From Deltaproteobacteria bacterium (GTDB taxonomy: Bacteria; Desulfobacterota; Syntrophobacteria; Syntrophobacterales; Syntrophobacteraceae): a DNA stretch of 44,561 nt. The notes under the pieces were generated by a model. The model did not search any database, was not told the DNA's origin, and saw only the letters and a list, made by a program, of their open reading frames with translations. The stretch covers positions 1 through 44,561 of the forward strand of contig JAAYVE010000036.1 in assembly GCA_012517315.1 (NCBI GenBank), given 5' to 3'. Both the position numbers and the translations under genes were made by a program. Every line of letters starts with the position of its first letter. Position 1 is the stretch's first letter. Positions 541 through 22,278 of the stretch are shown here, piece after piece.

Positions 541-615
541 ATGGATAAGGAAGACGGGATATGGGTGGATTGCGGGGACCTTTGTTCCGGACCGGACCCG
601 ATGCATAAAGACTAA
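541..615 (+). CDS. possible 24-residue peptide
   Basis: This short frame (ATG 541, TAA 613-615) is preceded by a good ribosome binding site, AGGAGG, 4 bases before the ATG. The peptide is acidic and has two cysteines. It runs 4 bases into the convergent btuD stop. I recognise no family and it may be chance. The rest of 290-611 holds nothing else I can support. Confidence 0.2.
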   Translation: MDKEDGIWVDCGDLCSGPDPMHKD

Positions 616-1412
616 AGGACTCGGGTCAGCCTCTTAGGGACAAGGGTCACGCGGGGAACGTCCTTGAGTGGGTTTCTGTCCACGAGGAGAACGCATCCGT
701 ACGTCTTTTCCAGCATATGGAATTCCACGACCTCATCGGGGGTCCCCACGCTCATGACCTGTCCGCCCTTCATGAGGAGGAGGCGGTCGGCATACAGGCA
801 CGCCAGGTTCAGGTCGTGGGAAACCATGACGACACTCACCCTCTCCCCATGTCGGAGGTCTTCCATGAGATCCATGATGAGCAGTTGATGCGCCAGATCC
901 AGGGAAGCGGTGGGTTCGTCCAGCAGAATGATCCGGGGCTGCTGGCACACGGCGCGGGCGATGAGAACCCGCTGGCGCTCCCCCTGGCTCAGTTCGTCCA
1001 ATCGTCGCCGTGCAAGGTGCTCCACTCGGGTGAACTGCATGGCTTGAAGGGCGATTTCCTGGTCGGTGCGCTTCTCCAGTTCAAGGAGTCCAAGGTGGGG
1101 GGAACGCCCCATGAGAACCACCTCCTCCACCGTGAAGGGAATGTCTGCCGGGACTGTCTGGGGCACCAGGGCCACGATCCGGGAAAGAGCCCTGTGGGAA
1201 TAATCACCGAGCGACCGCCCCAGGATTTCCACTCCGCCGCCCTTGGGCTTCAGGGCGCCCGAAACGGCCTTGACCAAGGTCGTCTTACCTGAACCGTTGG
1301 GTCCGATGACAATGAAGAACTCCCCTTCCTCCACGGAAAAAGAGACGCGATCCAGCACCGTCCGGTTTCCATAGGCATGGGTGAGTTCGCTCACCCGGAG
1401 GGATTCCCTCAT
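612..1412 (-). CDS. btuD: corrinoid/iron-chelate ABC transporter ATP-binding protein
   Basis: This is a 266-residue ATPase of the BtuD/FepC family that drives import of cobalamin or other metal chelates across the inner membrane. It shows Walker A GPNGSGKTT near residue 38, a Q-loop (VALVPQ), the signature LSQGERQR, Walker B IILLDEPTASLD and the H-loop VSHDLN. The ATG overlaps the stop of the upstream permease gene by 4 bases, so the two are translationally coupled. A siderophore role cannot be excluded from the ATPase alone. The cobalamin assignment rests on the neighbouring PduO gene and riboswitch. Confidence 0.85.
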   Translation of the reverse strand: MRESLRVSELTHAYGNRTVLDRVSFSVEEGEFFIVIGPNGSGKTTLVKAVSGALKPKGGGVEILGRSLGDYSHRALSRIVALVPQTVPADIPFTVEEVVLMGRSPHLGLLELEKRTDQEIALQAMQFTRVEHLARRRLDELSQGERQRVLIARAVCQQPRIILLDEPTASLDLAHQLLIMDLMEDLRHGERVSVVMVSHDLNLACLYADRLLLMKGGQVMSVGTPDEVVEFHMLEKTYGCVLLVDRNPLKDVPRVTLVPKRLTRVL

Positions 1413-2434
1413 CGCCTAGACCTCTGGAGTAGGAAGATGAAGAGGGGGGCGCCGATCATTGCGGTGATCACCCCCACGGGCATTTCTCCCTGTGTGGGAA
1501 GGGACCGGGCCAGGAGATCGCACAGAATGAGGTAGGCGCCACCGCCCAAAAGGCTTGCCGGCACCAGGAGGCGATGATCCGGGCCGAATCCGAGGCGCAG
1601 GAGATGGGGCATGACCAGCCCAACGAAGCCGAGCAGCCCCGAATGGCAGACGGCCGCGCTCACCATGAACGAGGTGACGACGAGAAGGGTCACGGAAACG
1701 GCCTGCACGTTCACTCCCATGTTGGCGGCCATTTCCTCCCCCATGAGAAGCAGGTTCATGGGACGGGCCAGGACCATGATGCCCGCGAAACAGGGAATCA
1801 TGGCCCATCCGAGGATGAAGGTCTGACCCGCATCGGCCATGGACAGGTCTCCCATGAGCCAGAAGAGGATGTTGTAGAGCCTGGAGTCCTGGGTGACCGA
1901 AACCAGGAACATGATGACGGACGAGCAGAAAGCGTTGACCATGACCCCGGCAAGGATCAGGCCGTCCTTGCGCATGGCCTTCCCGGTGGAGGAAATGACC
2001 AGAACGAGGAGCAGGGTGGCCATGCTCCCCGCAAAGGCGAGCAGAGAAACGCCGGGGAAGCGGGCGAAACCCAGGAGAATCCCCGCAATCGCCCCCACGG
2101 CGGCCCCCCCCGAGATGCCCAAAATGTAAGGCTCCGCGAGGGGGTTTCTCAGGAGGGCCTGGAAGACCAGACCCCCCAGGGAGAGAGCGGCTCCCACCAG
2201 GGAGGCGAGGAGAACCCTCGGCAGGCTGAGACGCCAGATGATGTCGGCCATGATGGGGTCCACGCCTCCCTGATCCCACAGGATGGCCGCCACCTGGCCG
2301 ACGGCGAAACCGGAGGACCCCGCCGCGAGCCCCAGGAAGGCGGCCACTGCGAGCAGCAGTGCCATCACAAGGGAAACCCCCATGATCCGTCTCATCAAGG
2401 GACGTGGGTGATCGGCGGTGGTCTCTGCTTCCAT
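1409..2434 (-). CDS. btuC: corrinoid ABC transporter permease, FecCD/BtuC family
   Basis: A 341-residue polytopic membrane protein of the FecCD family, forming the channel of the BtuCDF-type importer. It has the family's 'NPLAEPYILGISGGAA' segment and the cytoplasmic 'FVGLVMPHLLR' loop that contacts the ATPase. I chose the ATG at 2434 although the frame is open further upstream. It overlaps the btuF stop as TGATG, and it gives the usual family length with a first transmembrane helix soon after the start. It ends in a 4-base overlap with btuD. Confidence 0.88.
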   Translation of the reverse strand: MEAETTADHPRPLMRRIMGVSLVMALLLAVAAFLGLAAGSSGFAVGQVAAILWDQGGVDPIMADIIWRLSLPRVLLASLVGAALSLGGLVFQALLRNPLAEPYILGISGGAAVGAIAGILLGFARFPGVSLLAFAGSMATLLLVLVISSTGKAMRKDGLILAGVMVNAFCSSVIMFLVSVTQDSRLYNILFWLMGDLSMADAGQTFILGWAMIPCFAGIMVLARPMNLLLMGEEMAANMGVNVQAVSVTLLVVTSFMVSAAVCHSGLLGFVGLVMPHLLRLGFGPDHRLLVPASLLGGGAYLILCDLLARSLPTQGEMPVGVITAMIGAPLFIFLLQRSRR

Positions 2435-3336
2435 CAAAAGAGATCCGGGTGAATGATCCTTGCGAGAATCTCCAGGCCTTGCACCAGCCGTGGAGTGGGC
2501 CGGTCGAAGAGGTTCGAGTCCACCACGTGGAGACGCCCGTTGCGAACGGCGGGCACCCCATCCCAGCGTTTCCACTCCTCCTTCACCTGTTCGAAGTCCT
2601 GTCCCCGGGTCATGGAAGTGATGACGAGAATCTCCGGTCCCAGCGCCAGGACCTGCTCACGGCTGTAGCGGGGATATGCCGTGGGACCGCGGGTCAGGTT
2701 GGAACCTCCCGCCGTCTCGATGAGTTCGTGAATGAACGTGTTGGTTCCCACAGCCACGATGGGAACCACGCCGATTTGAAAGAAAACCCCCGGCCGATGC
2801 GTCGCCCGGGAAACGGTGTGTTTCACTGTATCGATGCGGTTTCGCATGTCTGCAGCCAGTTCCAGTGCCTTGCCGTCCGCCCCCAAAAGCCTTCCCATTT
2901 CCACGACGGTCTCCACGGCCGTACGGAGGTCTTTGGGGTTGACCACGTAAACGGGAATCCCCAGTCCGGTCAACCGATCCACCAGTTCTTTGGGATTGCC
3001 GTCCCGGGTCCCGATGCAAAAATCGGGTTTGAGGGCCACGATGCGTTCCAGGTCCGGATGCACATAGGAACCGATCCTGGGCAGGCCCAAAGCCTGGGGG
3101 GGAAAGTCGCAGTGATCGGTCACACCCGCAAGGCGCTTCCCTTCACCCAGGGCAAACACGATTTCCGTGATGCTGGGGGCAAGGCTCACCACGCGCACCG
3201 GGTTCTCCGGAACCGCCACCGGCCGCCCCACCTGATCATGCTGTAACCCGGCCGGGCATCCCAACGGCGGCCAAATCAAACACACGGACAAAAGCGCGGC
3301 TGCAATGAAGAACCGAAACATGTCCAACCACCCCAT
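2434..3336 (-). CDS. btuF: periplasmic corrinoid-binding protein (BtuF-like)
   Basis: A 300-residue class III substrate-binding protein. It has an N-terminal hydrophobic export signal (about residues 6-28), then the BtuF/FepB fold opening 'RVVSLAPSITEIVFALG' and the segment 'HCDFPP', typical of cobalamin-binding BtuF proteins. It should capture corrinoid in the periplasm and deliver it to BtuCD. AGGAA lies 6 bases before the ATG at 3336; an ATG at 3321 is an alternative. It leads the btuFCD operon. I see no cobalamin riboswitch on its own strand upstream, unlike the other corrinoid genes here. Confidence 0.82.
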   Translation of the reverse strand: MGWLDMFRFFIAAALLSVCLIWPPLGCPAGLQHDQVGRPVAVPENPVRVVSLAPSITEIVFALGEGKRLAGVTDHCDFPPQALGLPRIGSYVHPDLERIVALKPDFCIGTRDGNPKELVDRLTGLGIPVYVVNPKDLRTAVETVVEMGRLLGADGKALELAADMRNRIDTVKHTVSRATHRPGVFFQIGVVPIVAVGTNTFIHELIETAGGSNLTRGPTAYPRYSREQVLALGPEILVITSMTRGQDFEQVKEEWKRWDGVPAVRNGRLHVVDSNLFDRPTPRLVQGLEILARIIHPDLF

Positions 3337-3623: not shown

Positions 3624-3641
3624 TATTTTCACATACGGAAA

Positions 3642-3808
3642 CCAAGGGGCATCAGGCACCGCGAGGTTTAAAAGGGAATCCCGTGAGAATCGGGAACGGT
3701 CCCGCCGCTGTAAACGGGGACGAAATCCGAAAAAGCCACTGAATTGCCGCAAGGCAACGGGAAGGCTCGGAGAGTAGGGTGATCCGTGAGTCAGAAGACC
3801 TGCCTGAG
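3642..3808 (+). promoter_or_regulatory. cobalamin riboswitch 1
   Basis: The conserved core of the cobalamin aptamer can be read in order: AAAAGGGAATCCCGTGAGAA, GGTCCCGCCGCTGTAAACGG, GCCACTG, CGGGAAGG, and GATCCGTGAGTCAGAAGACC ending in TGCC (the B12-box side). It precedes a terminator at 3879-3910 and then the adenosyltransferase operon, so it most likely terminates transcription when adenosylcobalamin is plentiful. Confidence 0.95.
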
Positions 3809-3878
3809 GGCCGACGGATCCATGGCACGTGGAAATGCCGGGGGATTCTTTGAAGGACCAAGCGAAACAGGGTGCAAT

Positions 3879-4062: not shown

Positions 4063-4395
4063 ATGAGAGACGCCTCGGGGCTTCACAGCCCCTTTGTCCG
4101 CTGCACGGTGATCCTGTCCGGGGGCAGGGAGAACGTCACCCTGGGAGGAGTGGGGAACCTCGGGATCGGGTCCCTCTCGGGGTGCGATCCCCCCAACGGC
4201 CCTTCCCCTATCCTTCGATATCAAAACGGCCCGGATGAGAGGGAACCGGCGGGTAAGGTGTTCTTCAAGGAGGATGACTCGGGAGAACGAGAACACCTTG
4301 TCATTCTGGACATGGGGGATGGCCGGGTTTATCGCTTGAGGCCCGGCAAGGCCCCCCTTCGTGATCCGCTGGGCGCCCGGGACCCTTATCCATGA
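4063..4395 (+). CDS. hypothetical protein in the pduO operon
   Basis: A 110-residue frame with no family I recognise. The ATG at 4063 has a strong GGAGGAGGAGG binding site just upstream, which I prefer to the earlier in-frame ATG at 4048. The product has no signal peptide or membrane segment. Its middle is Gly/Asn/Pro-rich and its C-terminal half is charged ('HLVILDMGDGRVYRL'). It is the first frame after riboswitch 1 and its terminator, so if real it is corrinoid-controlled. The 223 bases to pduO contain no other convincing gene. Confidence 0.4.
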   Translation: MRDASGLHSPFVRCTVILSGGRENVTLGGVGNLGIGSLSGCDPPNGPSPILRYQNGPDEREPAGKVFFKEDDSGEREHLVILDMGDGRVYRLRPGKAPLRDPLGARDPYP

Positions 4396-4618
4396 ACACC
4401 ACCGGGTGGCCCGTGCTCCTTACCGGGCTCACCTCCCATCTGCGTGTCCCATGAGCGAAATCCAACCCAAACCGATGCCACATTGTCCATCGACATCCAC
4501 AAGCGGTTGCTTACTCGAGAGGATGAGACGACAGCGCACGCCCGTTTTCCATTCCCGTTGCCGACCTGCCGTCAGCGAACGTGCCACAGATCCTGCAAAA
4601 TCGGAGGAAAGCCAGGCC

Positions 4619-5278
4619 ATGCGGATTTACACAGGAACCGGAGATCAGGGGTATACTAGTCTTTTCAGCGGGGAAAGGGTCCCCAAATGCCATGAGCGTT
4701 TGCACGCATACGGAGACCTGGATGAACTCAGTTCCATCCTGGGTGTCCTCATCACCAAGCTGCCCGATTCGGAACAGGAAATCCGGAATGATCTCCTGCA
4801 GATCCAGTCCAACCTTCTGAGCATGGGCGCCTGGCTGGCCACCACTCCCGATTCCACGTCCGAATGCGTCCTGGAGGAAATCCCCGATTCCGTTCACGAA
4901 GCTCTGGAGCACTCCATTGACATTTTGCAGGAAGATCTGCCCCTTTTGACTCAGTTCATCCTGCCCGGCGGCCATGAATCGGCGGCCGTGGCACACGTGG
5001 CAAGGACCGTCTGCCGCCGGAGTGAAAGACATGTTGTGGCCATGATGGCATGTCTGCCGGAGGAAGAAAAACCTCCCCAACTGGAGAAGTTCCTGATCTA
5101 TCTCAATCGGCTGTCGGACTACCTCTTCGTCCTGGCCCGGCATTGCAACGCCGTTCATGGCTTTTCCGATGTCTTATGGCCCCACCTGCAGAATGCAGGC
5201 AAACGGTCTGTCGCCGCAGGGGACAGGCGATCCCCCTCCCTCTCCGTGGTTTCGTCCTCCTGCGGCGAAAGGGGATAG
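4619..5278 (+). CDS. pduO: cob(I)alamin adenosyltransferase, PduO type
   Basis: A 219-residue cytoplasmic enzyme that transfers the adenosyl group of ATP to cob(I)alamin, giving adenosylcobalamin. It starts with the family motif 'YTGTGDQGYTSLFSG', continues with 'AYGDLDELSS', and has the C-terminal active-site segments 'CRRSERH' and 'YLNRLSDYLFVLAR'. The frame is open further upstream, but homology begins exactly at the ATG at 4619, preceded by GGAGGAAA. The last 30 residues are a low-complexity Ser/Arg tail. Riboswitch 1 upstream fits feedback by the product. Confidence 0.92.
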   Translation: MRIYTGTGDQGYTSLFSGERVPKCHERLHAYGDLDELSSILGVLITKLPDSEQEIRNDLLQIQSNLLSMGAWLATTPDSTSECVLEEIPDSVHEALEHSIDILQEDLPLLTQFILPGGHESAAVAHVARTVCRRSERHVVAMMACLPEEEKPPQLEKFLIYLNRLSDYLFVLARHCNAVHGFSDVLWPHLQNAGKRSVAAGDRRSPSLSVVSSSCGERG

Positions 5279-5304: not shown

Positions 5305-5892
5305 ATGAAAGTTGAAGCCGTGTGCAAAGAGTGCGGCAAGGTATTCGTCAAGTATTCCTACAGCAGGACGACCCGCTGCGACACATGCCTGGCGAGGAGC
5401 CGTCCGGTTGCCCGCGGACCCGTGAACGAGAGAGCCTTGCAGGTGCTGATGCTTTCCGCCAGGGGCCGGAACATCGACCGCATCCTGGGCGTGGAACTGG
5501 GGGCCGACGATTATGTGGTGAAGACCTACAGTCCCCGGGAACTGACGCGGCGTTTGATAGACGTCCTGGGGCATTCCACTTCGGAAACCTTCCTCGAATT
5601 CTCTTACTGGCAGGAAGAGGGCCTGCATGTCGATTTTGAAGCCCACCGGGTGCTTGTGGAAGGGGTGGAGGTGCAGCTCACCGCAACGGAATTCAAGCTC
5701 CTGGCGGAACTCATCCGGAGCCGGGGGGTGGTCTTGTCCCGGGAAGACCTCCTGGACAAGGTCTGGGGATATCGCTACGACGGATACAACCGGACCATCG
5801 ACACCCACGTGAGAAGACTGCGGCACAAGATATCCCCCTATTCCCAATGGGTGGAGACGGTACGGGGCGTGGGATACCGCTTCAAAACGTAG
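5305..5892 (+). CDS. zinc-ribbon / remnant receiver / OmpR-type winged-helix DNA-binding protein
   Basis: A 195-residue protein with an odd build. Residues 7-29 have two CxxC pairs (CKEC, CDTC) like a zinc ribbon. Residues about 46-88 match only the last third of a response-regulator receiver ('LMLSAR', 'LGADDYVVKTYSPREL'). Residues about 100-195 are a complete OmpR/PhoB winged helix ('LTATEFKLLAEL', 'TIDTHVRRLRHKI', 'VRGVGYRF'). The acidic pocket and phospho-acceptor Asp are missing and the usual Lys-Pro is Lys-Thr, so classical phosphorylation is unlikely. It starts 26 bases after pduO with a GAGGGGAA binding site, so it is probably in the same riboswitch-controlled transcript. Confidence 0.85.
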   Translation: MKVEAVCKECGKVFVKYSYSRTTRCDTCLARSRPVARGPVNERALQVLMLSARGRNIDRILGVELGADDYVVKTYSPRELTRRLIDVLGHSTSETFLEFSYWQEEGLHVDFEAHRVLVEGVEVQLTATEFKLLAELIRSRGVVLSREDLLDKVWGYRYDGYNRTIDTHVRRLRHKISPYSQWVETVRGVGYRFKT

Positions 5893-5981
5893 CCTTATCC
5901 AATCGCTCCGGGAGCACTCTGGTTGAAAGGCGTCCGGGCCGGGGACCCTCTCCGGCCAGGATGCCGCCCCCTGCTTTACTC

Positions 5982-6242
5982 TCACTGAGGAGTGCCACTC
6001 CGCCCCCCCTGCCGGTAGACCACGTCCGTCACGTTGCGACAGTCGTACACGGTGCAGAAGCCGCTGCGATCGGAGGCGGGGAAAACGCCAACCACCTCCC
6101 GGTACCAGTCCCCGTGATCGTCCACACGCTCCACCAGAGCTATCCCAGCAAGGGGCCGCAGCTCCCTGCTTCCGTCCTCAAAAAAAAGCTCCACTTCCCA
6201 TCCTTCGGCGGGAATGAGCTGCACAATCCGATAGGCGACCAT
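5982..6242 (-). CDS. hypothetical protein, 86 residues
   Basis: A small soluble-looking protein with alternating charged and hydrophobic strands ('WEVELFFEDGSRELRPL', 'GDWYREVVGVFPASD') and two cysteines near the C-terminus. I recognise no family. The start at 6242 has a strong purine-rich binding site (GGGGGGAAGGGA) directly ahead, which favours it over upstream ATGs in the same frame. It is convergent with the winged-helix gene and stands alone on its strand. The following 6243-6810 holds no gene I can support. Confidence 0.5.
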   Translation of the reverse strand: MVAYRIVQLIPAEGWEVELFFEDGSRELRPLAGIALVERVDDHGDWYREVVGVFPASDRSGFCTVYDCRNVTDVVYRQGGRSGTPQ

Positions 6243-6810
6243 TCCCTTCCCCCCTTGCACGTCCCAAAGGGCACCCTGCCGTTGTGACACACGGCAGCCT
6301 AGCATAACTGGGATTTCCGCGGCAATGGCCACCCCCCCGATTATTTTCATGGAGAGCAATATCCTCCCAATTTTGAGCAATATCGACCGAGCATGCCGTC
6401 CTCGATTCAGGTATCAGTCCTCTTAGATGCCATCCTCGAGGGCGGGAGCGGGTGCTGGCCGCTTCCGTTACCAGGCGCAGGGCCGGTGGATTGTCCCCGG
6501 CCCGAAGCCCTCCGGGGTTTTCCTCTGTCTGCTGAAAGGAAGGATCCCCCGGGAAACCCGTCGGCGCGACGGCCCCGCGCCACACGCAGGTTTTGAAGCA
6601 GAGGGGGAGATGGCGGGGCCTCAAACCCAAGCAGGTGTGGAAAGAGGACTGTCCGGCTTTTCCCCGTGTTAGCCCGAAACGGGGAGGATCAGGCGGGAAG
6701 CGGCCCCGGTGCTGCGGAGGGACCCCGCAGCCATGGGCCTGGTGATTCCGTCCCACACCGACGGAAAGGAGGTGAGAGGGCTTTGCGTCACCCGGGCGAC
6801 GGCCGCCTGG

Positions 6811-7061
6811 CCGGTGCCTGAGATGTAGACGAGCAGTCGATGAAAAGCCCGGAGCTGTTCAAGGGAATCGGGTGCAAATCCCGAGCGGACGCGCCGCTGT
6901 GAACGGTGACGAGGGCCGCGGAAAGCCACTGAGGGAGACTTGGTGAACAGAGGAAGGAGTGAGACCGGGAACTGAGGACATGTCGTTTTGGCCTCCTCAC
7001 ATATCAAGACTCACCGGGAAGGCGCGGCCTACAGGTTGACCCGTCAGCCAGAAAACCTTGC
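6811..7061 (+). promoter_or_regulatory. cobalamin riboswitch 2 (extended form)
   Basis: The aptamer core is readable: CCGGTGCC at the 5' side, CAAGGGAATCGGGTGCAAAT, GCGCCGCTGTGAACGG, GCCACTG (6925-6931), CCGGGAAGGCG (7014-7024), and TTGACCCGTCAGCCAGAAAA followed by CCTTGC. About 80 bases separate CCACTG from GGGAAGG, where the other copies here have only about 10-45, so a peripheral arm is enlarged. A terminator follows at 7151-7180 and the surface-protein operon after that. Confidence 0.85.
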
Positions 7062-7150
7062 AGTCTCATGGGAGCATGGTCCGAGTCAGACCTCGCGAGA
7101 CGGGTCCAATGGACTTATTGCAGAGGGTGCGAGTGCCTCTGCGGCGAGGT

Positions 7151-7180
7151 CCCGATTCCGGACGGAATCGGGTTTTTTTT
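7151..7180 (+). terminator. rho-independent terminator of riboswitch 2
   Basis: A 9-bp perfect stem CCCGATTCC/GGAATCGGG (7151-7159 with 7164-7172) with a 4-base loop is followed by eight T. No gene lies between it and riboswitch 2, so it is the likely off switch. Confidence 0.85.
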
Positions 7181-7394
7181 GGTCCTGCGAAACGGCCGGG
7201 TGAAAGGGCCTCCAAGGCCTGGTGTTCAAGGATCGAAGAAGGGGGGTACTGCCGGAGCGGCCCCACCCAGGGGCGCTCCCCGCCACGGTTCTACGTCGAA
7301 GCTCATGCGAAGGAGGGAGACGCAGATCACCATGGCGCTGAGTCAGAGAGCGGTGATTCCAATGAAATGATGCACCGGAACCTCGATCGCACTT

Positions 7395-7486
7395 TCCAGT
7401 AAAACGCCAGTTCCGTCAAAGCCACACCCCGGGCGACCGGGGGCCGGAAAGCCACGGGTCTCGCAGGAGACGGCCGGGTTGCCGAA
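7395..7486 (+). promoter_or_regulatory. GEMM-type (cyclic dinucleotide) riboswitch candidate
   Basis: The segment reads CGTCAAAGCC, a CCCCGG-GCGA-CCGGGG hairpin with a GNRA loop, GGAAAGCCACGGG, a TCTC-GCAG-GAGA hairpin, and GGCCGGGTTGCCGAA. The 3' half closely follows the GEMM-I consensus ('AAAGCCACGGG...GCCGGGTTGCCGA'). The 5' half is more divergent. GEMM-I RNAs bind c-di-GMP, and a subset binds cGAMP; which applies here cannot be told by eye. The terminator at 7473-7506 shares the aptamer's 3' strand, a direct mechanism for ligand-controlled termination. Confidence 0.7.
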
Positions 7487-7506
7487 AAGCAACCCGGCTT
7501 TTTTTT
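7473..7506 (+). terminator. rho-independent terminator overlapping the GEMM aptamer
   Basis: A perfect 10-bp stem GCCGGGTTGC/GCAACCCGGC (7473-7482 with 7489-7498), loop CGAAAA, is followed by eight T. Its 5' arm is the 3' edge of the riboswitch, so ligand-bound aptamer and terminator compete for the same bases. It ends 55 bases before the first surface-protein gene. Confidence 0.9.
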
Positions 7507-7561
7507 GGGGCGGCGGCAATGCCCGTCGAGAGCACAAACCTGCATTGAAAGGGAGGAAATG

Positions 7562-8380
7562 ATGCGGTTCAAGGTGTTTTTCGTGGCTGTGCTCCTGGTC
7601 TTCTCAGGGGCGACGGCTCATGGCTACGTGACCCATTTCGACGATTTCGCCCTCACCGTGCCGCCGGCGACCGATTACACCGGTCCCGGCGGGGGTCGGT
7701 ACTACAACGGTTCCGACGGGGCTGGCGGCTTCACCAGCGGCGGGGCCTATTTCAGCAACAATTACAATGCATCCTGGGGTTCCTGGGACGGCTGGTCCGT
7801 CTCCAACACCACGGACACCACCACCCCCGGTTACACCAACCAGTACAGCGCCTTCACCGGGGGGGCTCAGAGCGGCACCCAGTACGGCGTCTATTACCAG
7901 CCCTGGATGGGGGGGCCCACGGTGAGCTTCACCTCGCCCGACCCCGTGACGATCGAGGGAGCCTATTTCACCAACACTACCTATGCGGCCCTTTCCATGC
8001 TCAACGGGGATTCCTTCGCCAAGAAGTTCGGGGGAGCCACCGGCGATGACCCCGACTGGTTCAAGCTGACCATCCGGGGGGTCGACGGAGGGGGAGGCTA
8101 CACGGTCAACTCCGTGGAGTTTTACTTGGCGGACTACCGCTTTGCAAATAACGCCCTGGATTACATCGTGGATGACTGGACCTGGGTGGACCTGGCCGTC
8201 CTGGGACACGTCTATGGCCTGGAATTCCAGCTCACCTCATCGGACATGGGGGAATGGGGGATGAACACCCCGGCCTACTTCGCCATGGACTCCATGAGCG
8301 CGGTGCCCCTGCCGCCCGCCGTCTGGCTGCTGGGCAGCGGGCTGCTGGGTCTGATCGGCATTCGCCGCAGGCGATCCTGA
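7562..8380 (+). CDS. DUF4465-like exported protein with VPLPA-CTERM tail
   Basis: A 272-residue exported protein. It has an N-terminal signal peptide (about residues 1-20), a Gly/Tyr/Trp-rich beta domain and a C-terminal sorting tail VPLPPAVWLLGSGLLGLIGI followed by Arg residues. That is the motif, hydrophobic helix and basic end of VPLPA-CTERM/exosortase substrates. The segment 'DTTTPGYTNQYSAFTGG' and the overall pattern resemble DUF4465, which from memory occurs in cobalamin-uptake loci of Bacteroidetes. GGGAGG sits 5 bases before the ATG at 7562; the adjacent ATG at 7559 is an alternative. It heads the operon behind riboswitch 2 and the GEMM candidate, so a corrinoid-binding surface role is plausible but inferred. 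Confidence 0.8.
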   Translation: MRFKVFFVAVLLVFSGATAHGYVTHFDDFALTVPPATDYTGPGGGRYYNGSDGAGGFTSGGAYFSNNYNASWGSWDGWSVSNTTDTTTPGYTNQYSAFTGGAQSGTQYGVYYQPWMGGPTVSFTSPDPVTIEGAYFTNTTYAALSMLNGDSFAKKFGGATGDDPDWFKLTIRGVDGGGGYTVNSVEFYLADYRFANNALDYIVDDWTWVDLAVLGHVYGLEFQLTSSDMGEWGMNTPAYFAMDSMSAVPLPPAVWLLGSGLLGLIGIRRRRS

Positions 8381-8409
8381 ACGGCAGCATACAGAAAGGG
8401 AACTTCCAG

Positions 8410-9219
8410 ATGAGACGAAACGTCATCCTGACAGTGCTGGCGGTCCTCCTGACCGCCATGAGCTGGGTGACCTCCGCCCAGGCGGGGCCATACGCCCCCG
8501 CAGCGGGACAGCCGGGCTCGACGGCCATTCACAAGGACGACGCCGCCTTTGTGGGCTGGGCCACGGGCTGGCAGAATTACATCGTGGGCACTTATGACAA
8601 CTCGACAACCCCTGTGGACAGCCGCTGGCAGACTCCTGAAAAGGCCCTGGGTAAGGCTGTGGGGGATTCCTACGACATCGTCACCCTGGGTAAGGGGGGA
8701 TCCATCACTCTGACCTTCGCGAGCGGTATCGGCGACGGGGTCGGCTGGGATTTCGCCGTTTTCGAAAACAGTTTCAATGACACGTTCCTGGAGCTTGGTT
8801 ACGTGGAAGTCTCCTCCAACGGGACCGACTTCTTCCGGATGTTGAACGACTCGCTGACACCCGGCCCCATAGGTGCCTTCGGGTCGGTGGACTCCACCAA
8901 CATCGACGGGCTGGCGGGCAAGTACCGTCAAGGCTACGGGACTCCCTTCGATCTGGCTTCACTGGCCGGGGTCAGTTCCTTTCTGGACATCCATAACATC
9001 CTTTATGTGCGCATCGTGGACATCTGCGGGGACGGCACCTACCTGGACAGCTCCGGGAACGTCATCTACGACCCCTACCCAACAACGGGCAGCCCGGGCT
9101 TCGACCTGGACGCCGTCGGGGTCCTTCACGCGGCCAACCCCGTGCCGGTCCCCAGCGCGGTCTGGCTCCTGGGAACCGGCCTTCTGGCTCTGATGGGTAT
9201 CCCCAGGCGGGAGGCTTGA
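8410..9219 (+). CDS. exported surface protein with VPLPA-type sorting tail
   Basis: A 269-residue protein with a signal peptide (about residues 1-25, ending SAQA), a beta-rich body and a C-terminal sorting tail VPVPSAVWLLGTGLLALMGI plus a short basic end. The segments 'GVGWDFAVFENSF', 'LELGYVEVSSNGTDF' and 'GFDLDAVGVLHA' resemble beta-sandwich cell-surface proteins that, as I recall, sit next to DUF4465 genes and btuB in Bacteroidetes. No enzyme motif is seen. It starts 29 bases after the previous stop and should share its transcript and riboswitch control. Confidence 0.8.
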   Translation: MRRNVILTVLAVLLTAMSWVTSAQAGPYAPAAGQPGSTAIHKDDAAFVGWATGWQNYIVGTYDNSTTPVDSRWQTPEKALGKAVGDSYDIVTLGKGGSITLTFASGIGDGVGWDFAVFENSFNDTFLELGYVEVSSNGTDFFRMLNDSLTPGPIGAFGSVDSTNIDGLAGKYRQGYGTPFDLASLAGVSSFLDIHNILYVRIVDICGDGTYLDSSGNVIYDPYPTTGSPGFDLDAVGVLHAANPVPVPSAVWLLGTGLLALMGIPRREA

Positions 9220-9259: not shown

Positions 9260-10726
9260 ATGAGATGGAAAGGAAGGCTCAAAACGTTCGGAGCCGTTCT
9301 GGCATCCCTGCTCGTGGCGTCGGCCCCTGCGGGGGCCGGCCTGGTGGGAGGCACCGGCTACGGCGTCAATGAGCCCACCATGGACACAAGGACCGGCAAA
9401 TCCTATGCCGGCGGCATGGATGTCGTCTATGCCCAGATCGCCACGGGAACGGCCGCCGCCAAGACACGCAGCTTCTTGAAGTGCGAAGACGGCGATTGGT
9501 CAGGCAATTGGGGCGTCCAGGTGGCCATGTACGATTACCGGGGCAAGTTCGTCGGCACTCTGGGTTCGGCGGTCAATCCCTACGGCTCGGGCATGTACAG
9601 CGTCTTCGCCCAGGGACTCAAGGTGGACCCTACTCCCGACGGCGGCGGCAACCGGGCCGTCTGGTTCTCCATGACCGGGAGCGGAGCCGATGAAGGGGAC
9701 TGGTACACGGTGACCGTCAACCCGGACTTCAACACCGTGGTGTCCGGTCCCACGGCACAGTTCTCCCAGGCGGGGAATTGGGAGGTGGAATGGAACCCGG
9801 TGACCGGCCAAGGCTTTTTTGCGGGCAAGGCGACCGATGCCTGGGTGGAGCCCCATGCCATTTACATTTGGACGGGAACCAAATTGCAAAAGGTGGTGGA
9901 CGTGGGGGGCTATTCCTGCGGGTTTGCCTTTGACCCGGACGGAAACCTGTACACCGGCACCTACACAGATTCCGGGCCGGCGAGCCAGCAATACGTGAGG
10001 ATGTACACGGCGGCCCAGGTGGCTGCCGCTGTTTCGTCCGGCACACCCCTGACCCCGGCCGCCGCCGCCAATACCATCGCCATCCCCAGCCCCAACGGAG
10101 TTTATCTTGGGGCCAACGACCTGGAAGCCGATGTGGACGGCAACATCTACCTCACGGCCAACGGGGCCTGGGACGACACCTACCAGTCGGATGTGGGCTA
10201 TGTCTTCCGTATCGACGCGTGGAACCCGTCCAGCCCGCCGACCACCATGACCCGGATCGCCGCGGGAACCATGGACCCGTCCAATCCCGACTGGCAGAAG
10301 GCCATGGCCTTCGACGGCAGTTCGAACCTGGCGGAGGGGGGACATTACGACCCCACCAACCCTTCCCAGATGGGCAACCGGCTTTACGTGGACCAGGATT
10401 TCTGGTGGGGCAGCGGCGGGCCGGATGTGGTGTCCGGTTTGTCAACCAGTACCGACACGGATGCGGACGGCGTGCCCGATGCCCTGGATAACGCCCATCT
10501 CACGGCCAATGCCGCCCAGCAGGACGCCGATCAGGACATGTACGGCAACATCGCCGACGCCGATTTCAACAACGACGGCCTGGTTGGAACCACCGACATG
10601 GCGATTCTAAAGGCGAACTGGCTGGGGTCCAATCCAGTAGTAGATATGGACGGCAACGGCACCGTCGGCACTTCGGATTTCACTCGCTTTAAGAGCCGTT
10701 GGCTTGCATCTGCGCCGTTCTTTTAG
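9260..10726 (+). CDS. exported propeller-like protein with C-terminal dockerin-like module
   Basis: A 488-residue exported protein. The ATG at 9260 has AGGAG 8 bases upstream; a GTG at 9239 is possible. A signal peptide covers about residues 1-25. The middle has repeated Asp/Gly-rich blades ('CGFAFDPDGNLYTGT', 'DLEADVDGNIYLTANG') like a beta-propeller. The C-terminus carries calcium-loop repeats: 'TDTDADGVPDALDN', then two dockerin-type loops, 'DFNNDGLVGTTDMAILKANW' and 'DMDGNGTVGTSDFTRFKSRW'. It has no VPLPA tail, unlike its neighbours, so it may be held at the surface by protein-protein docking. A BtuG-like corrinoid-binding propeller is possible but unproven. Confidence 0.8.
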   Translation: MRWKGRLKTFGAVLASLLVASAPAGAGLVGGTGYGVNEPTMDTRTGKSYAGGMDVVYAQIATGTAAAKTRSFLKCEDGDWSGNWGVQVAMYDYRGKFVGTLGSAVNPYGSGMYSVFAQGLKVDPTPDGGGNRAVWFSMTGSGADEGDWYTVTVNPDFNTVVSGPTAQFSQAGNWEVEWNPVTGQGFFAGKATDAWVEPHAIYIWTGTKLQKVVDVGGYSCGFAFDPDGNLYTGTYTDSGPASQQYVRMYTAAQVAAAVSSGTPLTPAAAANTIAIPSPNGVYLGANDLEADVDGNIYLTANGAWDDTYQSDVGYVFRIDAWNPSSPPTTMTRIAAGTMDPSNPDWQKAMAFDGSSNLAEGGHYDPTNPSQMGNRLYVDQDFWWGSGGPDVVSGLSTSTDTDADGVPDALDNAHLTANAAQQDADQDMYGNIADADFNNDGLVGTTDMAILKANWLGSNPVVDMDGNGTVGTSDFTRFKSRWLASAPFF

Positions 10727-10799: not shown

Positions 10800-11441
10800 A
10801 TGAAACGTCTCTTCACCAGCTTCTGTTTGCTACTCCTTGCCGGTGTGTGTTTTTTGCCTGGGGGTGTCCAGGCAGCCTACGTCGATTTGCGGCCTGACGG
10901 GATTGCCATGACATCCGACGGGCAATCATACGATCCGGGTGACAACGATGTGATGCTGCAGGTGTGGGTCATGCCCTCGGGACCGGAAGATGTCACCCTG
11001 GACGGATGGGCCATCGACATTTGGTTCGACGCTTCCGAAACCCTCGACTATCAAAGGACTCAGAGTCAGAACATTCTGCCGGGGCCTAGCTGGTTCACTA
11101 TTACTTCGCCCGGTAATGTCATCAAGGATGCGTCTCCGTATGTCCAGAACCTTGAGGGATTCACTTTTGATCTGGAGACGATTCCTTTCACCCCTTCAGG
11201 TGTGCATATCGCCGACTTGTTCTTCACTTTCGATAGAGCCTCACTGGGTGCCGATGGACTCCCCGATTTTACTGTTTACTACCGTCCCGGCCAGTCCCTG
11301 CTTGAGAACGGTTCATTCGAAGAGTTCAAACCCGGCAGTATCGGCCCGGACCTGGCCCCGGTGCCCATCCCGGCAGCGGTCTATCTCTTCGGCTCGGGCT
11401 TGATCGGCTTGGTAGGCATCCGTCGGCGGATGGCGGCGTGA
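10800..11441 (+). CDS. cohesin-like exported protein with VPLPA-CTERM tail
   Basis: A 213-residue exported protein. AAAGGAG lies 8 bases before the ATG at 10800 and a signal peptide covers about residues 1-23. The body has short beta strands such as 'LQVWVMPSG', 'LDGWAIDIWFDASETLDY' and 'HIADLFFTFDRAS', a pattern reminiscent of cohesin domains. The tail VPIPAAVYLFGSGLIGLVGI followed by RRR is a clear VPLPA-CTERM sorting signal. It directly follows the dockerin-like protein gene, which suggests an anchor for it. The cohesin assignment is tentative; the export and sorting signals are clear. Confidence 0.75.
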   Translation: MKRLFTSFCLLLLAGVCFLPGGVQAAYVDLRPDGIAMTSDGQSYDPGDNDVMLQVWVMPSGPEDVTLDGWAIDIWFDASETLDYQRTQSQNILPGPSWFTITSPGNVIKDASPYVQNLEGFTFDLETIPFTPSGVHIADLFFTFDRASLGADGLPDFTVYYRPGQSLLENGSFEEFKPGSIGPDLAPVPIPAAVYLFGSGLIGLVGIRRRMAA

Positions 11442-11587: not shown

Positions 11588-12292
11588 ATGCAGGTCGATA
11601 AAAGGAATGCATCTTTTGGGAAATGGGCGCCCCTGGCCGTGTTGATTGTGGCGGCAGGGGCTTTCCTGATCCACTTCCTGAACAAACCATCAAAAGAACC
11701 GCCTCAGGTGAAACCACCGGCTCAGTCCCGGTCAAAACCGGCCGACTCCGGGCCTTCGCAGCGGACCGGAAGGCAAGCGGCCCTCAGCAACAACGAGTCG
11801 AAGATGTCCTTCCATGACCCCGCCGACGACCTCAAGGAAGAGACCGCCAAGCGCATCGCCGCATTCGAGTCCAACGTGCTGTGGGAGACTCGCGCCAGCC
11901 GCGTCCGGGTGGAAACGCCGCAGCTTCTGGCCCTTTCGGGTAGGACCCCGGCCCAGCAGCCTGCCGGGTCCCAACCGGGTCTGGCAGACCGCTCGGCTTC
12001 CTCGGGGGCGTTGGAGGAGAGCGGCTCCCCCTTCGGAGGGCCCGGTTACGTGGCCTTCATGATCCGCCCCGAAGGCATGGCGGAAGGGGTTCACCTCACC
12101 ATGGAAAACATCGCGCGTCACTACTTCGAACAGTTCAAGGATGCTCCCCAAGTGACGGTATCCCTCATCGTCGGCGGAGGGGTCAGGGACAGGCGGACGT
12201 TTTTCAACAATGGAGACGGAGCGGTGAGCGCAGCGGGGGGAGACCTGACTTCGACAGACAGCCAGGATCAGGGCTTCCACGAAGCGAGGTAG
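11588..12292 (+). CDS. hypothetical membrane-anchored protein
   Basis: A 234-residue protein of no family I recognise. One transmembrane segment (about residues 12-31) is followed by a Pro/Ser/Lys-rich linker, a helical stretch ('LKEETAKRIAAFESNVLWETRA') and a C-terminal part ('GYVAFMIRPEGMAEGVHL', 'VTVSLIVGGGVRD'). The topology is that of a type II membrane-anchored periplasmic protein. ATG 11588 follows a GAGG; ATG 11570 is an alternative. Its end overlaps the convergent tadG-like gene by 25 bases. It may belong with the VPLPA genes or the Tad locus, or with neither. Confidence 0.55.
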   Translation: MQVDKRNASFGKWAPLAVLIVAAGAFLIHFLNKPSKEPPQVKPPAQSRSKPADSGPSQRTGRQAALSNNESKMSFHDPADDLKEETAKRIAAFESNVLWETRASRVRVETPQLLALSGRTPAQQPAGSQPGLADRSASSGALEESGSPFGGPGYVAFMIRPEGMAEGVHLTMENIARHYFEQFKDAPQVTVSLIVGGGVRDRRTFFNNGDGAVSAAGGDLTSTDSQDQGFHEAR

Positions 12293-13599
12293 AGGATGCC
12301 GGGTCCGCAGGGCGGCCCAAATCGCCCGTCCAGGGTGGTCTCGGCGGATTGCACACTCTTTTGGCCGTACAGCAGGATGGCCCTGTCTGCGATGATGCGC
12401 ATGCGGTAAGTCGTCTGTTTGGCGGAGTAGAAGGCCGGCACACGGGCAGTGAAGGTCTTTTCGGTGCGGTAGATCACCCCCTCGTGGAGGAAGTTGGCCA
12501 GGGTCGGCACGGAGCCGCCGATGGCCTGTCGGCAGTAGATGTAGGCCATCTGTTCGCCGGGCCCGCCCAGGGTGTGCCGGACCATGGGGTTGTCAAAGGT
12601 GAGGGGTAATTCCGAGGCCACCACGAAACCGGTGATCTGACTGCCGTATTCTTCGCTGATTCCCGTGATGGAGATGGAGTATTCTTCCACGGGGTGCTCC
12701 AGTGGTCCTTCCGCGCTGATGTAATAAACGGCGCCGCTGTGGTCCCCTTCGCGCAGCCCTAGAGCGAAGCCCTTGCCGTCGGCTTTCACGGCGTAGCAAC
12801 GGTTGCCGTCATATTCCAGGTAGTTCTGATCGGCCGGTATGCCCGTGTCACGCTTTGGGAAATCGCTCATGCGGAACACACGCCCCGATGTCTCGGCTTT
12901 CGCCCTCAAGGCGCTCCAGTCCACCGGCCGAACGTCCCGGACAGTCTCAGCGCCTTCAATGCCCGAGGGGAGATTCACGACCTCCCCCGAGGCCGTCGCC
13001 ACCGTGTCCCCGGCAAAATCCGGGCTCCCTGTAAACCGCATGTCCCCGTTGGCATGCATCCTGCCCATGTCTTGGAAGACCGGGTAGCCTGCGGGGAATC
13101 TTTCCCGGGTCTCGATATCGGGGTCGTCATCCGGCTCACCGCCGGCCAGGAGGCCGTACGGTTCCTTAAAGGCAATGGCGGAAGCGGTGACGGTCATGTC
13201 CCCTTCCCCCCCGAAGATGGGAACCAGGCTCTGCTCCTTCACCGACAGGGTTACTCTCACGGCATTCTCGAATTCGTCTTCGCCCAGTTCGTCGACGTGC
13301 CGGAACTCTCCACTATCCTTGTCGTAGTGACCCACCTCGGCCCATTCTTCGGGCGCCTCCCCTTCCGGCCACTCACCTCCGAAAAGGGTCTGCCTCAGTA
13401 CCCTGAGAGCCGTCTCGACAGGATCCCCGCACAGCTCCAAGGCCCCGGCCATGGCCGCCTCTTCCGCAGCGTTTTGATAGCGGTTTTTTTCAACGTAGAG
13501 GTGACCGGAATTCACGGTGAACGCCAGCACCGCCACGAGGGCAAACAAGGAAACGGCGGTGACGATGGCGACGCTCCCCTGTTCATCGGATAGAATCAT
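12268..13599 (-). CDS. tadG: TadG-like pilus assembly protein
   Basis: A 443-residue protein whose N-terminus ('DEQGSVAIVTAVSLFALVAVL', about residues 5-25) is the pseudopilin-like membrane segment of the TadE/TadG group. It is followed by a large extracytoplasmic domain that I cannot assign. TadG-type proteins are minor pilin-like components of the Flp pilus machine. The frame is open well upstream of the ATG at 13599, but family similarity begins there and a GGGAG site precedes it. It is the last gene of the Tad operon. Confidence 0.75.
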   Translation of the reverse strand: MILSDEQGSVAIVTAVSLFALVAVLAFTVNSGHLYVEKNRYQNAAEEAAMAGALELCGDPVETALRVLRQTLFGGEWPEGEAPEEWAEVGHYDKDSGEFRHVDELGEDEFENAVRVTLSVKEQSLVPIFGGEGDMTVTASAIAFKEPYGLLAGGEPDDDPDIETRERFPAGYPVFQDMGRMHANGDMRFTGSPDFAGDTVATASGEVVNLPSGIEGAETVRDVRPVDWSALRAKAETSGRVFRMSDFPKRDTGIPADQNYLEYDGNRCYAVKADGKGFALGLREGDHSGAVYYISAEGPLEHPVEEYSISITGISEEYGSQITGFVVASELPLTFDNPMVRHTLGGPGEQMAYIYCRQAIGGSVPTLANFLHEGVIYRTEKTFTARVPAFYSAKQTTYRMRIIADRAILLYGQKSVQSAETTLDGRFGPPCGPGILYLASWKP

Positions 13600-13691
13600 G
13601 GCCAGGCTCCCGCAAGCTAACATGCCCTGGCAAGAGACGGCGGCGTCCTCAAAGGGCCGCCGGAGCCTCCGCCCGTACCTCCTTCTCACCC

Positions 13692-13967
13692 TCAGTCCCC
13701 GTACTGGGATTCCATTTTTGCCCTCTCTTCCTTTTTCTTTTCCGTCATGGCCGGGATATAGCGCTTCTCGTAGATCTCCGCAGCCACTTTGCCGGGAAGG
13801 ACCATGGCGGGGGTCGGGTCCGCCGGGGCATCGGGGTTCAAGACCTGGGCGCTGAACCAGAGGTGGGTGCACTGGCCGTAGGGGGGGCCCGAGGGTCCCT
13901 GATCCGTGCAGCAACCGAAAAGACCCAGCAGGAAAAACAGGCTGAAGGCTGTGAAGAGTTGTCGCAT
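13692..13967 (-). CDS. small lipoprotein in the Tad operon
   Basis: A 91-residue protein with a short signal peptide ending in a lipobox (LFGC), followed by a 70-residue charged domain with a helical Lys/Glu-rich end. I recognise no family. Its ATG overlaps the stop of the TPR protein gene as TGATG, so the two are coupled. By position it may be an outer-membrane accessory of the Tad secretin, a TadD/RcpB-like role, but that is inference. Confidence 0.65.
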   Translation of the reverse strand: MRQLFTAFSLFFLLGLFGCCTDQGPSGPPYGQCTHLWFSAQVLNPDAPADPTPAMVLPGKVAAEIYEKRYIPAMTEKKKEERAKMESQYGD

Positions 13968-14830
13968 CAAGGTTTCTCCTCCGAGGCATCGGGTTTACCC
14001 TTTTGGGGGCTTTCTCCGTGTTGTGCCAGGTTCTCCCTGGCATCCCGGAGCGTTTCGTCCAGGTTCAGGGCGGCGCGATAGCACTCCACGGCGGCCTCCC
14101 GCTCTCCGTTCACGTCGTGCAGGACCCCCAGGTTGTTGGCCGCCGCCGCTGCGGAAGCACGCGCCTTCAAGAGGGCCGATGCCTCCTCGTAGCGGCCCTG
14201 CGCGGCCAGGCACAGGGCAAGATTGTTCGCGGCTGCTTCCAGGTCCGGCCTGAGGGACAGGCTCTCCCGCAGGTGCCTTTCCGCCTCGGGATACCGCCCG
14301 GACAAAAGCTTGGAGAAACCGAGATTGTTGTGGAAATCGGCCCTTGCGGGATCCAGTTCGATGGCCCTCCCGTAGGCTTTCCAGGCAAGCTCCCGTGACC
14401 CCGAAAGATCGTAAGCCAGTCCCAGTCCATTGTGGGAAGGGGCATGCCCTGCATCCCGTTCGAGGGCCTTGCGAAAGCTCTCCACGGCCTTGTGGTATTC
14501 CGAGAGACCCAAATGACATCTCCCCATGAGGTGGAACACCTCGCAGCCGCCTTTTTCCGCATCGCGGGCCTGCTCCAACTGCACCAGGGCCACCCTGTAC
14601 ATGCCTTTGGCCACGAGTTCGCGGGCCAACTGGAGGTGGTTCGCCTGGGGCCTTTCCTTTTCCCGTTTTTCCTCGTTCTGTGCCGAAGCCTTCTGAATCA
14701 TGGCAGCCAGCTGCCGCTCCTGGCTCGAGGTGTTGCGGACAGCGCACCCATGGGCCAGGAGAGCGGGTAAGAGAAGCATCACGGGCAGAATTGGCGGGGT
14801 GGTCCGGTGTTTACTTTCTCTGGGAATCAT
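13967..14830 (-). CDS. tadD: TadD-like TPR lipoprotein
   Basis: A 287-residue protein with an N-terminal signal and likely lipobox (LAHGC, near residue 29), then an Ala/Glu-rich helix and about five tetratricopeptide repeats ('ALVQLEQARDAEKGG', 'AVESFRKALERDAGHAPSHN', 'AIELDPARADFHNNLG'). TadD proteins are TPR lipoproteins thought to help assemble the Flp pilus secretin at the outer membrane. It sits between tadC and the small lipoprotein, as expected for a Tad operon. Confidence 0.8.
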   Translation of the reverse strand: MIPRESKHRTTPPILPVMLLLPALLAHGCAVRNTSSQERQLAAMIQKASAQNEEKREKERPQANHLQLARELVAKGMYRVALVQLEQARDAEKGGCEVFHLMGRCHLGLSEYHKAVESFRKALERDAGHAPSHNGLGLAYDLSGSRELAWKAYGRAIELDPARADFHNNLGFSKLLSGRYPEAERHLRESLSLRPDLEAAANNLALCLAAQGRYEEASALLKARASAAAAANNLGVLHDVNGEREAAVECYRAALNLDETLRDARENLAQHGESPQKGKPDASEEKP

Positions 14831-14922
14831 AGGCGTCCGCCTTGGTCGATCATGGGATCCTTCGAGCCTCAGTTTCGTGCTGCCAGGGGGACGAGAATAG
14901 AGCGAACCGCCCCGCGGCCGCG

Positions 14923-15861
14923 TTAAAAGACCCGCTCCAGTCGTTCCAGCATGTTGATGAGGGCCGGGCCCAGGATCACGATGAGGAGAGCCGGCAGGAT
15001 GAAGAGGATCATGGGGAAGGTCAGCTTGGTGGAGATTCTCGCACCCTGCTCCTCCGCCGCCTGCATCCGTTCGGTCCTGAGGGAAACGGAATAGACCTGC
15101 AGGGCCTCGGCGATGTCCGTCCCCAGCCGTGTCGATTGGAGCAGCACGTTCACCACACCTGTCAGGGCATTCACCTGGTTTCTTTCCGCAAGCTTCACGA
15201 ACACCTCTTTTCGGGGAAGTCCTCCCTGGATTTCCAGGAAATACTGGGCCAGTTCCCTGGAAAGGACGGGGGCGATGTCCTTGAGTTCCCGGCTGACCCG
15301 GTGGAGGGCGCTGTCCAGGCTGAGGCCCGCTTCAATACAGATCTTGAGAAGGTCCAGCACATCGGGCAGTTCCTTCCAGATCTTTTTGCTCCGAACAGAT
15401 GCCTGACCGCGCAACACCGCGGCGGGCGCATAGTATCCAGCCGACAGGGGCAAAAACGTGTACAGGAGGCTCTTCCCCCCCCACTCCCCGCCCCAGATCA
15501 ACCCGGCGAGGTAAAGAAACCCCAGCGCCAGCCCCAGCACGACCCGCAGTCCGAAATAGAATTCCACGGCGGGATATGCGGTGGCTCGATAACCCGCTTG
15601 CCTCATGGATCGTCTGAGGGCCGAAAGGGCGCCCTCATCCCTGGGAGCCGCCACCTGCCCCAGGGGCACCAGGACCCGGGAAACCGCCGCCTGGAACCAT
15701 TCGCCGGTGAGGAGGCGCAGGCCCCTCTCCCGCTCCGGCTCAAGGCGCCTGAGAAGAGAACGGGCCCGAAACTCCCTGTCCGCCCACCGGTAGAGGAAAA
15801 GGAACGTGAAGGTCACCCAGGCGAATGAAAAGACCGCTGCGGCAAGACTCAGGGGTTTCAT
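14923..15861 (-). CDS. tadC: Tad inner-membrane platform protein TadC
   Basis: A 312-residue type II secretion F-domain protein with transmembrane segments near residues 5-25, 110-130, 135-155 and 285-305. The F domain includes 'LPDVLDLLKICIEAGLSLDSAL' in the middle. With TadB it forms the inner-membrane platform driven by the TadA ATPase. The ATG at 15861 overlaps the tadB stop by 4 bases. A longer frame upstream is ruled out by that overlap and by the position of the first membrane helix. Confidence 0.88.
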   Translation of the reverse strand: MKPLSLAAAVFSFAWVTFTFLFLYRWADREFRARSLLRRLEPERERGLRLLTGEWFQAAVSRVLVPLGQVAAPRDEGALSALRRSMRQAGYRATAYPAVEFYFGLRVVLGLALGFLYLAGLIWGGEWGGKSLLYTFLPLSAGYYAPAAVLRGQASVRSKKIWKELPDVLDLLKICIEAGLSLDSALHRVSRELKDIAPVLSRELAQYFLEIQGGLPRKEVFVKLAERNQVNALTGVVNVLLQSTRLGTDIAEALQVYSVSLRTERMQAAEEQGARISTKLTFPMILFILPALLIVILGPALINMLERLERVF

Positions 15862-18175: not shown

Positions 18176-18186
18176 GGGCTTTCCCC

Positions 18187-19383: not shown

Positions 19384-19501
19384 TCGACTCCCCTTCTTTT
19401 GTTCAAATCCTGTTCCAGCCCCTCGCGGGGACTGCTGTGCATGCTCCCTCTGACGGGAGACGGGATCACCGGGGCGGAGGCTGATCCCGGCCCGACCTTT
19501 T

Positions 19502-20983: not shown

Positions 20984-21187
20984 AGGGGGGGAACCGTCCC
21001 TCCGTCTGTCTCCCGGCGGGAGAAGGGTTCCTCACTGTTCATGGTCCATGCCCGATCCTTCCGCCGGCCCACAGTCTCCCCCGGGATGGGGAATTCGGCA
21101 AGTGCCCGGGGGAATCGCCACGACCCTGGGTTCACATGGGAATGGGTTGCGTGTGAAGGCAGCAGAGGGGGGACTCATGGGTCCCGA

Positions 21188-22255: not shown

Positions 22256-22278
22256 TGTTCCTCCCCCATTACGGTTCT

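Follow-up and report, generated by a model that had tools for sequence, protein, structure and literature searches.

Cobalamin and c-di-GMP-I-type riboswitches in series ahead of a putative surface B12-capture operon in Thermodesulfobacteriota

Why would the 5′ leader of a single surface-protein operon carry two riboswitches with distinct classes of ligand, one after the other, and what would the cell decide by making transcription pass both? This question is raised by a leader, placed by the original prediction from position 6811 on, in the 44,561-nucleotide stretch of DNA analysed here (henceforth the window), for which that prediction proposed a cobalamin aptamer and a GEMM-type aptamer, each with its own terminator, with no gene between them and a surface operon downstream. 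Using cmscan with gathering thresholds, we found both aptamers above their curated Rfam cut-offs: the core of the cobalamin aptamer matched RF00174 at 6862–7058 (+; 70.1 bits against a cut-off of 31.5), and the second aptamer matched the c-di-GMP-I-GGC model RF03167 at 7412–7487 (+; 66.2 bits against 59) and the GEMM-I model RF01051 (59.7 bits against 35). The serial arrangement of two ligand classes is therefore confirmed, as is the presence of a GEMM-type aptamer, although the latter had been expected to start at 7395 and its match begins at 7412. Each aptamer is also followed by a terminator-like hairpin, as proposed (7151–7172, then T8, and 7472–7499, then further T). Given that the terminator scan of positions 5800–8600 returned 4 sites compared with 2.2 ± 1.6 in shuffled sequences, and is thus not significant alone, the case made below is built on position and on homologous leaders.

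Homologous leaders were available from a published system. In the parts considered here, PMC9481103 describes three cobalamin/GEMM tandems of Desulfobacca acetoxidans, predicted to act as “NOT A AND B” gates, lists them in its Table 2 as two AdoCbl/c-di-GMP-I tandems and one AdoCbl/c-AMP-GMP tandem, and reports seven riboswitches in 7 kb as well as a figure of about 320 bases. In genome G261 we found three cobalamin and four GEMM elements within ~6.5 kb, with 323 bases separating the end of the first GEMM match from the first cobalamin match downstream. This array fits the published arrangement, from which we infer the name Desulfobacca for G261, and the order of the elements suggests that its tandem aptamers 1–3 are clusters 1–3 of PMC9481103.

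The leader's cobalamin match is the weakest of four such matches in the window and is partial, covering model positions 45–169 only, with the outer helices outside the model match. By eye, comparison with the Desulfobacca leaders places the likely 5′ strands of these helices, beyond the Rfam model, at 6839–6857 (+; GATGA at 6839–6843 and GCTG at 6854–6857, with partners at 7061–7069). Shortly 3′ of the aptamer lies a hairpin of 5 bp with an 8-base loop (P13/L13; 7089–7106, +). In cobalamin riboswitches, loop L5 forms a kissing interaction with loop L13 of the expression-platform hairpin, and in the window the L5 region (ACGCG; 6889–6893, +) appears able to pair in this way. A P13-type hairpin occurs just 3′ of the cobalamin aptamer in six out of six leaders compared (the window, Desulfobacca 1 and 3, and leaders from genomes G001, G298 and G324, described below), and the L5/L13 complementarity, judged by eye, reads CGCG–CGCG in the window and Desulfobacca, GGGG–CCCC in G298 and G324, and extends over three bases in G001. 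The 5-bp/8-base shape itself is not rare, with up to nine occurrences per leader, so the argument is carried by the place of the hairpin and by its loop sequence.

We then considered how this hairpin might act on intrinsic terminator 1 (7151–7180, +), which combines a 9-bp stem at 7151–7172 with the T8 run. When the nascent RNA was folded without P13, a long helix sequestered part of the terminator's 5′ arm; the predicted antiterminator spans 7079–7163 (+), pairing 7079–7087 with 7154–7163 and 7089–7096 with 7144–7151. With P13 forced, the lead of the terminator state over its competitor grew: in the window it went from 2.3 kcal/mol (or 3.0, with the bottom pair of the terminator left free) to 7.1 kcal/mol, in Desulfobacca 1 (the stretch is identical in Desulfobacca 2) from 3.4 to 7.4 kcal/mol and in Desulfobacca 3 from 1.2 to 2.4 kcal/mol, values which constitute a thermodynamic argument with a forced hairpin. 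Because forcing P13 favours the terminator state, we argue that the cobalamin element is an OFF switch. To our knowledge, cobalamin riboswitches are OFF switches. Even without P13, the terminator-1 state had the lowest energy for the full-length RNA of the window, meaning that the choice between OFF and ON must hinge on folding order. The lowest free folds of Desulfobacca 1 and 3 lacked the terminator. The terminator-1 arms of Desulfobacca leaders 1 and 2 are the same as in the window; leader 3 has, by eye, an imperfect form. Folding z-scores were −4.3 for 7085–7180 and −1.3 for the first terminator alone (7140–7180). Pairing of the aptamer core with terminator 1 was also considered as a candidate and rejected, the complementarity not being kept in Desulfobacca when inspected by eye.

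An opposite reading, in which the cobalamin element turns expression on or has lost its function, would accommodate both the partial model match and the existence of several alternative pairings in the expression platform. We nevertheless consider it very unlikely: P13 tips the energy towards the terminator in the window and in the Desulfobacca leaders, the hairpin and its loop complementarity (the pairing assigned by eye) recur, and PMC9481103, in the sections consulted, predicts OFF for the Desulfobacca cobalamin elements.

The second gate is built differently. Intrinsic terminator 2 (7472–7506, +) consists of the 7472–7499 hairpin found by the scan and a continuing T run identified by reading, and its 5′ arm (7472–7482) lies inside the aptamer. 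The proposal that this terminator borrows the aptamer's own 3′ strand thus holds, the stretch common to the two being 7472–7487. The same overlap was found in all seven tandem leaders, six of them by scan (the window, G001, G298 and the three Desulfobacca tandems) and G324 by eye, its loop being too long for the scan. Not counted is the GEMM element standing alone at the head of the Desulfobacca array, whose aptamer 3′ strand and terminator do not, by eye, keep the complementarity. Since the terminator overlaps the aptamer's 3′ strand, we argue that the GEMM element is an ON switch. Folding z-scores were −3.7 for 7405–7500 and −0.8 for the GEMM aptamer alone (7412–7487).

Which cyclic dinucleotide this aptamer would bind is less immediate, given that the Rfam model it matches best is that of the GGC variant of c-di-GMP-I. 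The variant is named after three pocket bases. In our alignment the RF03167 consensus has G at one position where the window has A. Of its 76 positions, the window's aptamer shares 62 with each of Desulfobacca aptamers 1 and 2 and 63 with aptamer 3. Sensing of 3′,3′-cGAMP, or of both dinucleotides, in place of c-di-GMP would be in line with the separate naming of the matched variant, and also with the statement in the consulted part of PMC9481103 that one Desulfobacca tandem has a second aptamer shifted towards c-AMP-GMP, which is the aptamer sharing 63 of 76 positions with the window. The position that sets the shifted aptamer apart argues against this: in our own alignment it corresponds to 7421, which is A in aptamer 3 and G in the window and in aptamers 1 and 2, so the c-AMP-GMP specificity base is absent from the window's aptamer. 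We accordingly regard cGAMP sensing as improbable and c-di-GMP as the likely ligand. The window's genome contains ten GGDEF matches.

For the two gates to act on one RNA, transcription would have to run through the spacer between them (7181–7411, +), in which we recognised neither a gene nor a promoter. A reading frame across part of the spacer (7058–7402) gave no hit in Pfam (E up to 0.01), in agreement with the expectation that no gene separates the aptamers. By eye, the spacer also contains a 12-codon frame from ATG to TGA (7332–7370, +) with an AGGAGG-like stretch ~15 bases upstream, which may be a leader peptide or a chance occurrence. If the spacer held a promoter, the operon would be controlled by the GEMM switch only, leaving the cobalamin switch to govern a separate short RNA or nothing. 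Room for such a promoter is greater in the window, where 354 bases separate the end of the cobalamin match from the start of the GEMM match, than in the six other tandem leaders, where the shorter distance of 117–208 bases leaves less. A scan for sigma-70-like sites gave none in the stretch between the two aptamers, but also none anywhere in 5800–8600, making this absence weak evidence. Considering as well that the order of cobalamin then GEMM recurs, we hold an internal promoter to be unlikely and favour a single transcript passing both gates.

What, then, would the two gates control? The first gene (7559–8380, +) encodes a DUF4465 protein (PF14717, E = 3.1e-55, 187.7 bits against a cut-off of 25) with a signal peptide and a VPLPA-CTERM-like tail that scores under the cut-off (22.7 against 25.35 bits). 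Its closest PDB match is the DUF4465 structure 9hmu (E = 6.9e-32), and it carries both an HI-loop motif of the TPAYF type (NTPAYF) and a DE-helix tyrosine motif (TNTTYA), whose tyrosine, by motif, probably corresponds to Y146 of BtuJ1. The sections of PMC13398666 considered here report B12 binding in eight distant DUF4465 members, a B12 complex (9HMU) and conserved tyrosines in two loops; c-di-GMP is not mentioned in those sections. For the second gene (8410–9219, +), neither Pfam (E = 0.01) nor a sequence search of the PDB (E = 0.1) gave a match. The AlphaFold2 model of its product, built from 21 sequences (pLDDT 85.8), had a single PDB match at E ≤ 0.001, BtuG1 (8blw_B), followed by 7biz_B, a B12-binding lipoprotein of B. 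theta (E = 2.3e-3). In structural comparison the best match was residues 318–593 of 7biz_B (Z = 13.0, rmsd 3.3, 164 aligned), followed by 8blw_B (Z = 11.4), with the next row at 9.7. The model therefore resembles the C-terminal domain of BtuG1/BtuGH, and the matched part is probably their H domain. By eye, this protein also ends in a VPLPA-CTERM-like tail.

The third gene (9260–10726, +) encodes a secreted protein that shows, close to the C-terminus, weak similarity of the thrombospondin-3/dockerin type, below the Pfam cut-offs; its structure model was unusable (pLDDT 30). The fourth (10800–11441, +), probably the last of the operon, encodes a protein with a VPLPA-CTERM tail above the cut-off (TIGR03370, 26.7 against 25.35 bits). 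Together with the signal peptide of the DUF4465 protein, this tail agrees with the predicted surface-protein operon; the genome has two exosortase matches.

We also examined the leaders of other DUF4465 genes. Among 55 genomes of the class two contain DUF4465, as do 8 of the 395 in a phylum sample, nine genomes together; with G426 excluded, where the contig ends at the gene, eight leaders were readable. A cobalamin riboswitch lay upstream on the same strand in all eight (~2.7 kb away in G235), and in four of these, belonging to four families, a GEMM element stood between the cobalamin element and the DUF4465 operon: the window's own genome (G000), G001 (68% complete, with the contig ending inside DUF4465), G298 and G324. 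The other four lacked it. Under a simple uniform model, about 0.0065 GEMM neighbourhoods would be expected in eight leaders, compared with the 4 observed. The G298 leader (L102 4951–5906, −) contains two cobalamin elements, then GEMM, then DUF4465, and in G324 a relative of the window's second gene precedes DUF4465. The scan found no intrinsic terminator after the cobalamin elements of G001, G298 and G324, which means that the first gate there differs or was missed. In G235 a row of GEMM elements occurs at L130 4183–4510 (−), two of which match the c-di-GMP-I-UAU variant RF03168, with a fourth between them.

We ran Rfam over 31 of the 36 named DUF4465 loci from the genome collection (all except L044, L045, L048, L049 and L050), and 23 of these had a cobalamin riboswitch upstream on the gene's strand, while GEMM scored above the cut-off in none of the 31, including the deltaproteobacterial L016 and L021. 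In L023 (3893–7144, +) and L027 (559–3372, +), relatives of the second gene are fused with DUF4465 domains in one open frame. No cobalamin element was found in the stretches of at most 1.5 kb on each side of 33 other GEMM loci (13 loci, L053–L065, plus 20). Cobalamin–GEMM pairs were sought through individual loci, among the class and phylum matches listed, and a pattern scan for cobalamin cores served as triage, being less sensitive than Rfam. A Fisher comparison of these figures (4/4 versus 0/33) was set aside, as it omitted D. acetoxidans with its three cobalamin–GEMM tandems lacking DUF4465. So far, the additional GEMM gate has been seen in part of one phylum.

G261 was not among the DUF4465 matches of the phylum sample (395 genomes), and the reading frames right after each of its tandems encode surface proteins with V-P-x-P-G-A-type tails. 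These proteins, rather than the conductive pili guessed at in the consulted part of PMC9481103, follow the tandems, and we rejected the pilus link for this reason. (The window does contain a Tad-type cluster at ~12268–23339 (−), beyond the operon and not under the tandem leader.) A reading frame downstream of the Desulfobacca array is 45% identical over 93 residues to the end of the window's third gene. In G298, the operon comprises DUF4465, a relative of the second gene and further reading frames like those of Desulfobacca (one aligned at 46% identity, the other likened by eye), and so ties the DUF4465 and Desulfobacca gene sets together. In profile comparison, two Desulfobacca surface proteins aligned with the second gene over 224 columns (E = 1.6e-16) when signal peptide and tail were kept; for a control family, the tail by itself gave an alignment at E = 3.2e-6. 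Trimming signal peptide and tail from the Desulfobacca side left 47 aligned columns (probability 78%, E = 1.8e-5), which is no more than suggestive of a relationship between these proteins and the window's second gene.

One could propose that the cargo serves adhesion or a matrix and that the DUF4465 protein is a minor part of it. The third and fourth genes have no B12 link, the Desulfobacca tandems precede anchored surface proteins without DUF4465, and the portion of PMC12530212 considered here places c-di-GMP riboswitches ahead of PEP-CTERM genes in Methylophaga. Set against this, the first two genes of the operon belong to B12-linked families and lie beside cobalamin control in every readable DUF4465 leader. 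We thus treat an adhesive or matrix function as possible, if on balance doubtful, and our best reading of the operon is that it serves B12 capture at the cell surface and would be switched on by scarce B12 together with high c-di-GMP.

The surroundings of the operon also concern cobalamin. The window has three further cobalamin riboswitches, and its genome has nine cobalamin and three GEMM matches in total. One of the three (3637–3821, +) lies upstream of a cobalamin adenosyltransferase gene (4361–5278, +) and another (27569–27774, −) upstream of a gene for a TonB-dependent receptor (25384–27447, −). The last (24950–25126, −; 114.7 bits) directly precedes a gene (23919–24956, −) whose product combines an AraC-type HTH domain with a cyclic-nucleotide-binding domain and may be a transcription factor under B12 control. 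BtuCDF-like ABC genes are found at 612–3336 (−). Taken together, the further riboswitches, the adenosyltransferase, the receptor and the ABC genes mark the window as a B12-uptake region; a multihaem cytochrome gene (28256–29782, +) lies near the B12 genes. Elsewhere in the genome, one GEMM element (L087 3080–3159, +) has a VPLPA-type tail match downstream in its locus, and another (L086 3186–3276, +) precedes a gene for a 731-residue secreted protein.

We propose that the leader is a two-input transcriptional gate, which would switch on surface proteins of B12-binding families when B12 is absent and c-di-GMP is present; we put this forward with moderate confidence, as somewhat better than an even proposition, the directions of the switches being drawn from folding and homology. 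Specifically, with no adenosylcobalamin the nascent RNA past the first aptamer would fold into the antiterminator and RNA polymerase would continue, while bound cobalamin would hold the P13 hairpin against loop L5, block the antiterminator and stop transcription at ~7180. A polymerase that passed terminator 1 would then make the GEMM aptamer. With c-di-GMP present, the aptamer's 3′ strand would be held, terminator 2 blocked and the operon read through; with no c-di-GMP, the overlapping terminator would form and transcription would end at ~7506. The cell would in this way invest in surface B12 capture when it is short of B12 and in a high-c-di-GMP, probably attached, state. The original prediction is thus supported in its sequence-level parts and, as far as folding and homologous leaders can indicate, appears right in its logic.

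Beyond this locus, we see roughly even chances that the leaders represent a recurrent RNA circuit of Thermodesulfobacteriota, in which surface B12 scavenging is conditional on c-di-GMP (i.e., B12 low AND c-di-GMP high) as part of an attached or biofilm programme, with the Desulfobacca tandems belonging to the same circuit. If true, this would be a direct RNA-level link from c-di-GMP signalling to corrinoid acquisition, B12-binding surface proteins elsewhere having been found under B12 control alone. Leaders from several lineages are available for comparison, one of them with two cobalamin elements in a row.

This kind of tandem is already published (PMC9481103), and what is new here is its cargo and its recurrence; besides that paper we found no other description of a cobalamin/c-di-GMP tandem in the openly licensed literature, and we make no claim of its absence from print. 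The window resembles the Desulfobacca tandems in the order of the elements, in the terminator after each aptamer, in the GEMM sequence (62–63 of 76 positions identical) and in the anchored surface proteins downstream. It differs from them in having one tandem copy rather than an array of three, a longer spacer, and DUF4465 and BtuG1/BtuGH-like proteins as its first genes. The consulted text of PMC9481103 could only guess at the purpose of the tandem, suggesting conductive pili as the link, whereas a B12-related cargo gives the same logic a testable meaning. As described in the sections considered of PMC13398666 and PMC12751083, the btu operons of Bacteroides thetaiotaomicron (BtuJ, BtuH, BtuG) likewise have a cobalamin riboswitch before DUF4465 and BtuG/BtuH-type surface proteins; unlike them, the window adds a c-di-GMP-type gate and has a VPLPA-CTERM-like tail in place of a lipoprotein anchor. 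Finally, the c-di-GMP riboswitches of Methylophaga precede PEP-CTERM/VPLPA-CTERM genes with exosortase-type sorting tails, as in the window, but in the table considered from PMC12530212 they stand without a cobalamin element in series.
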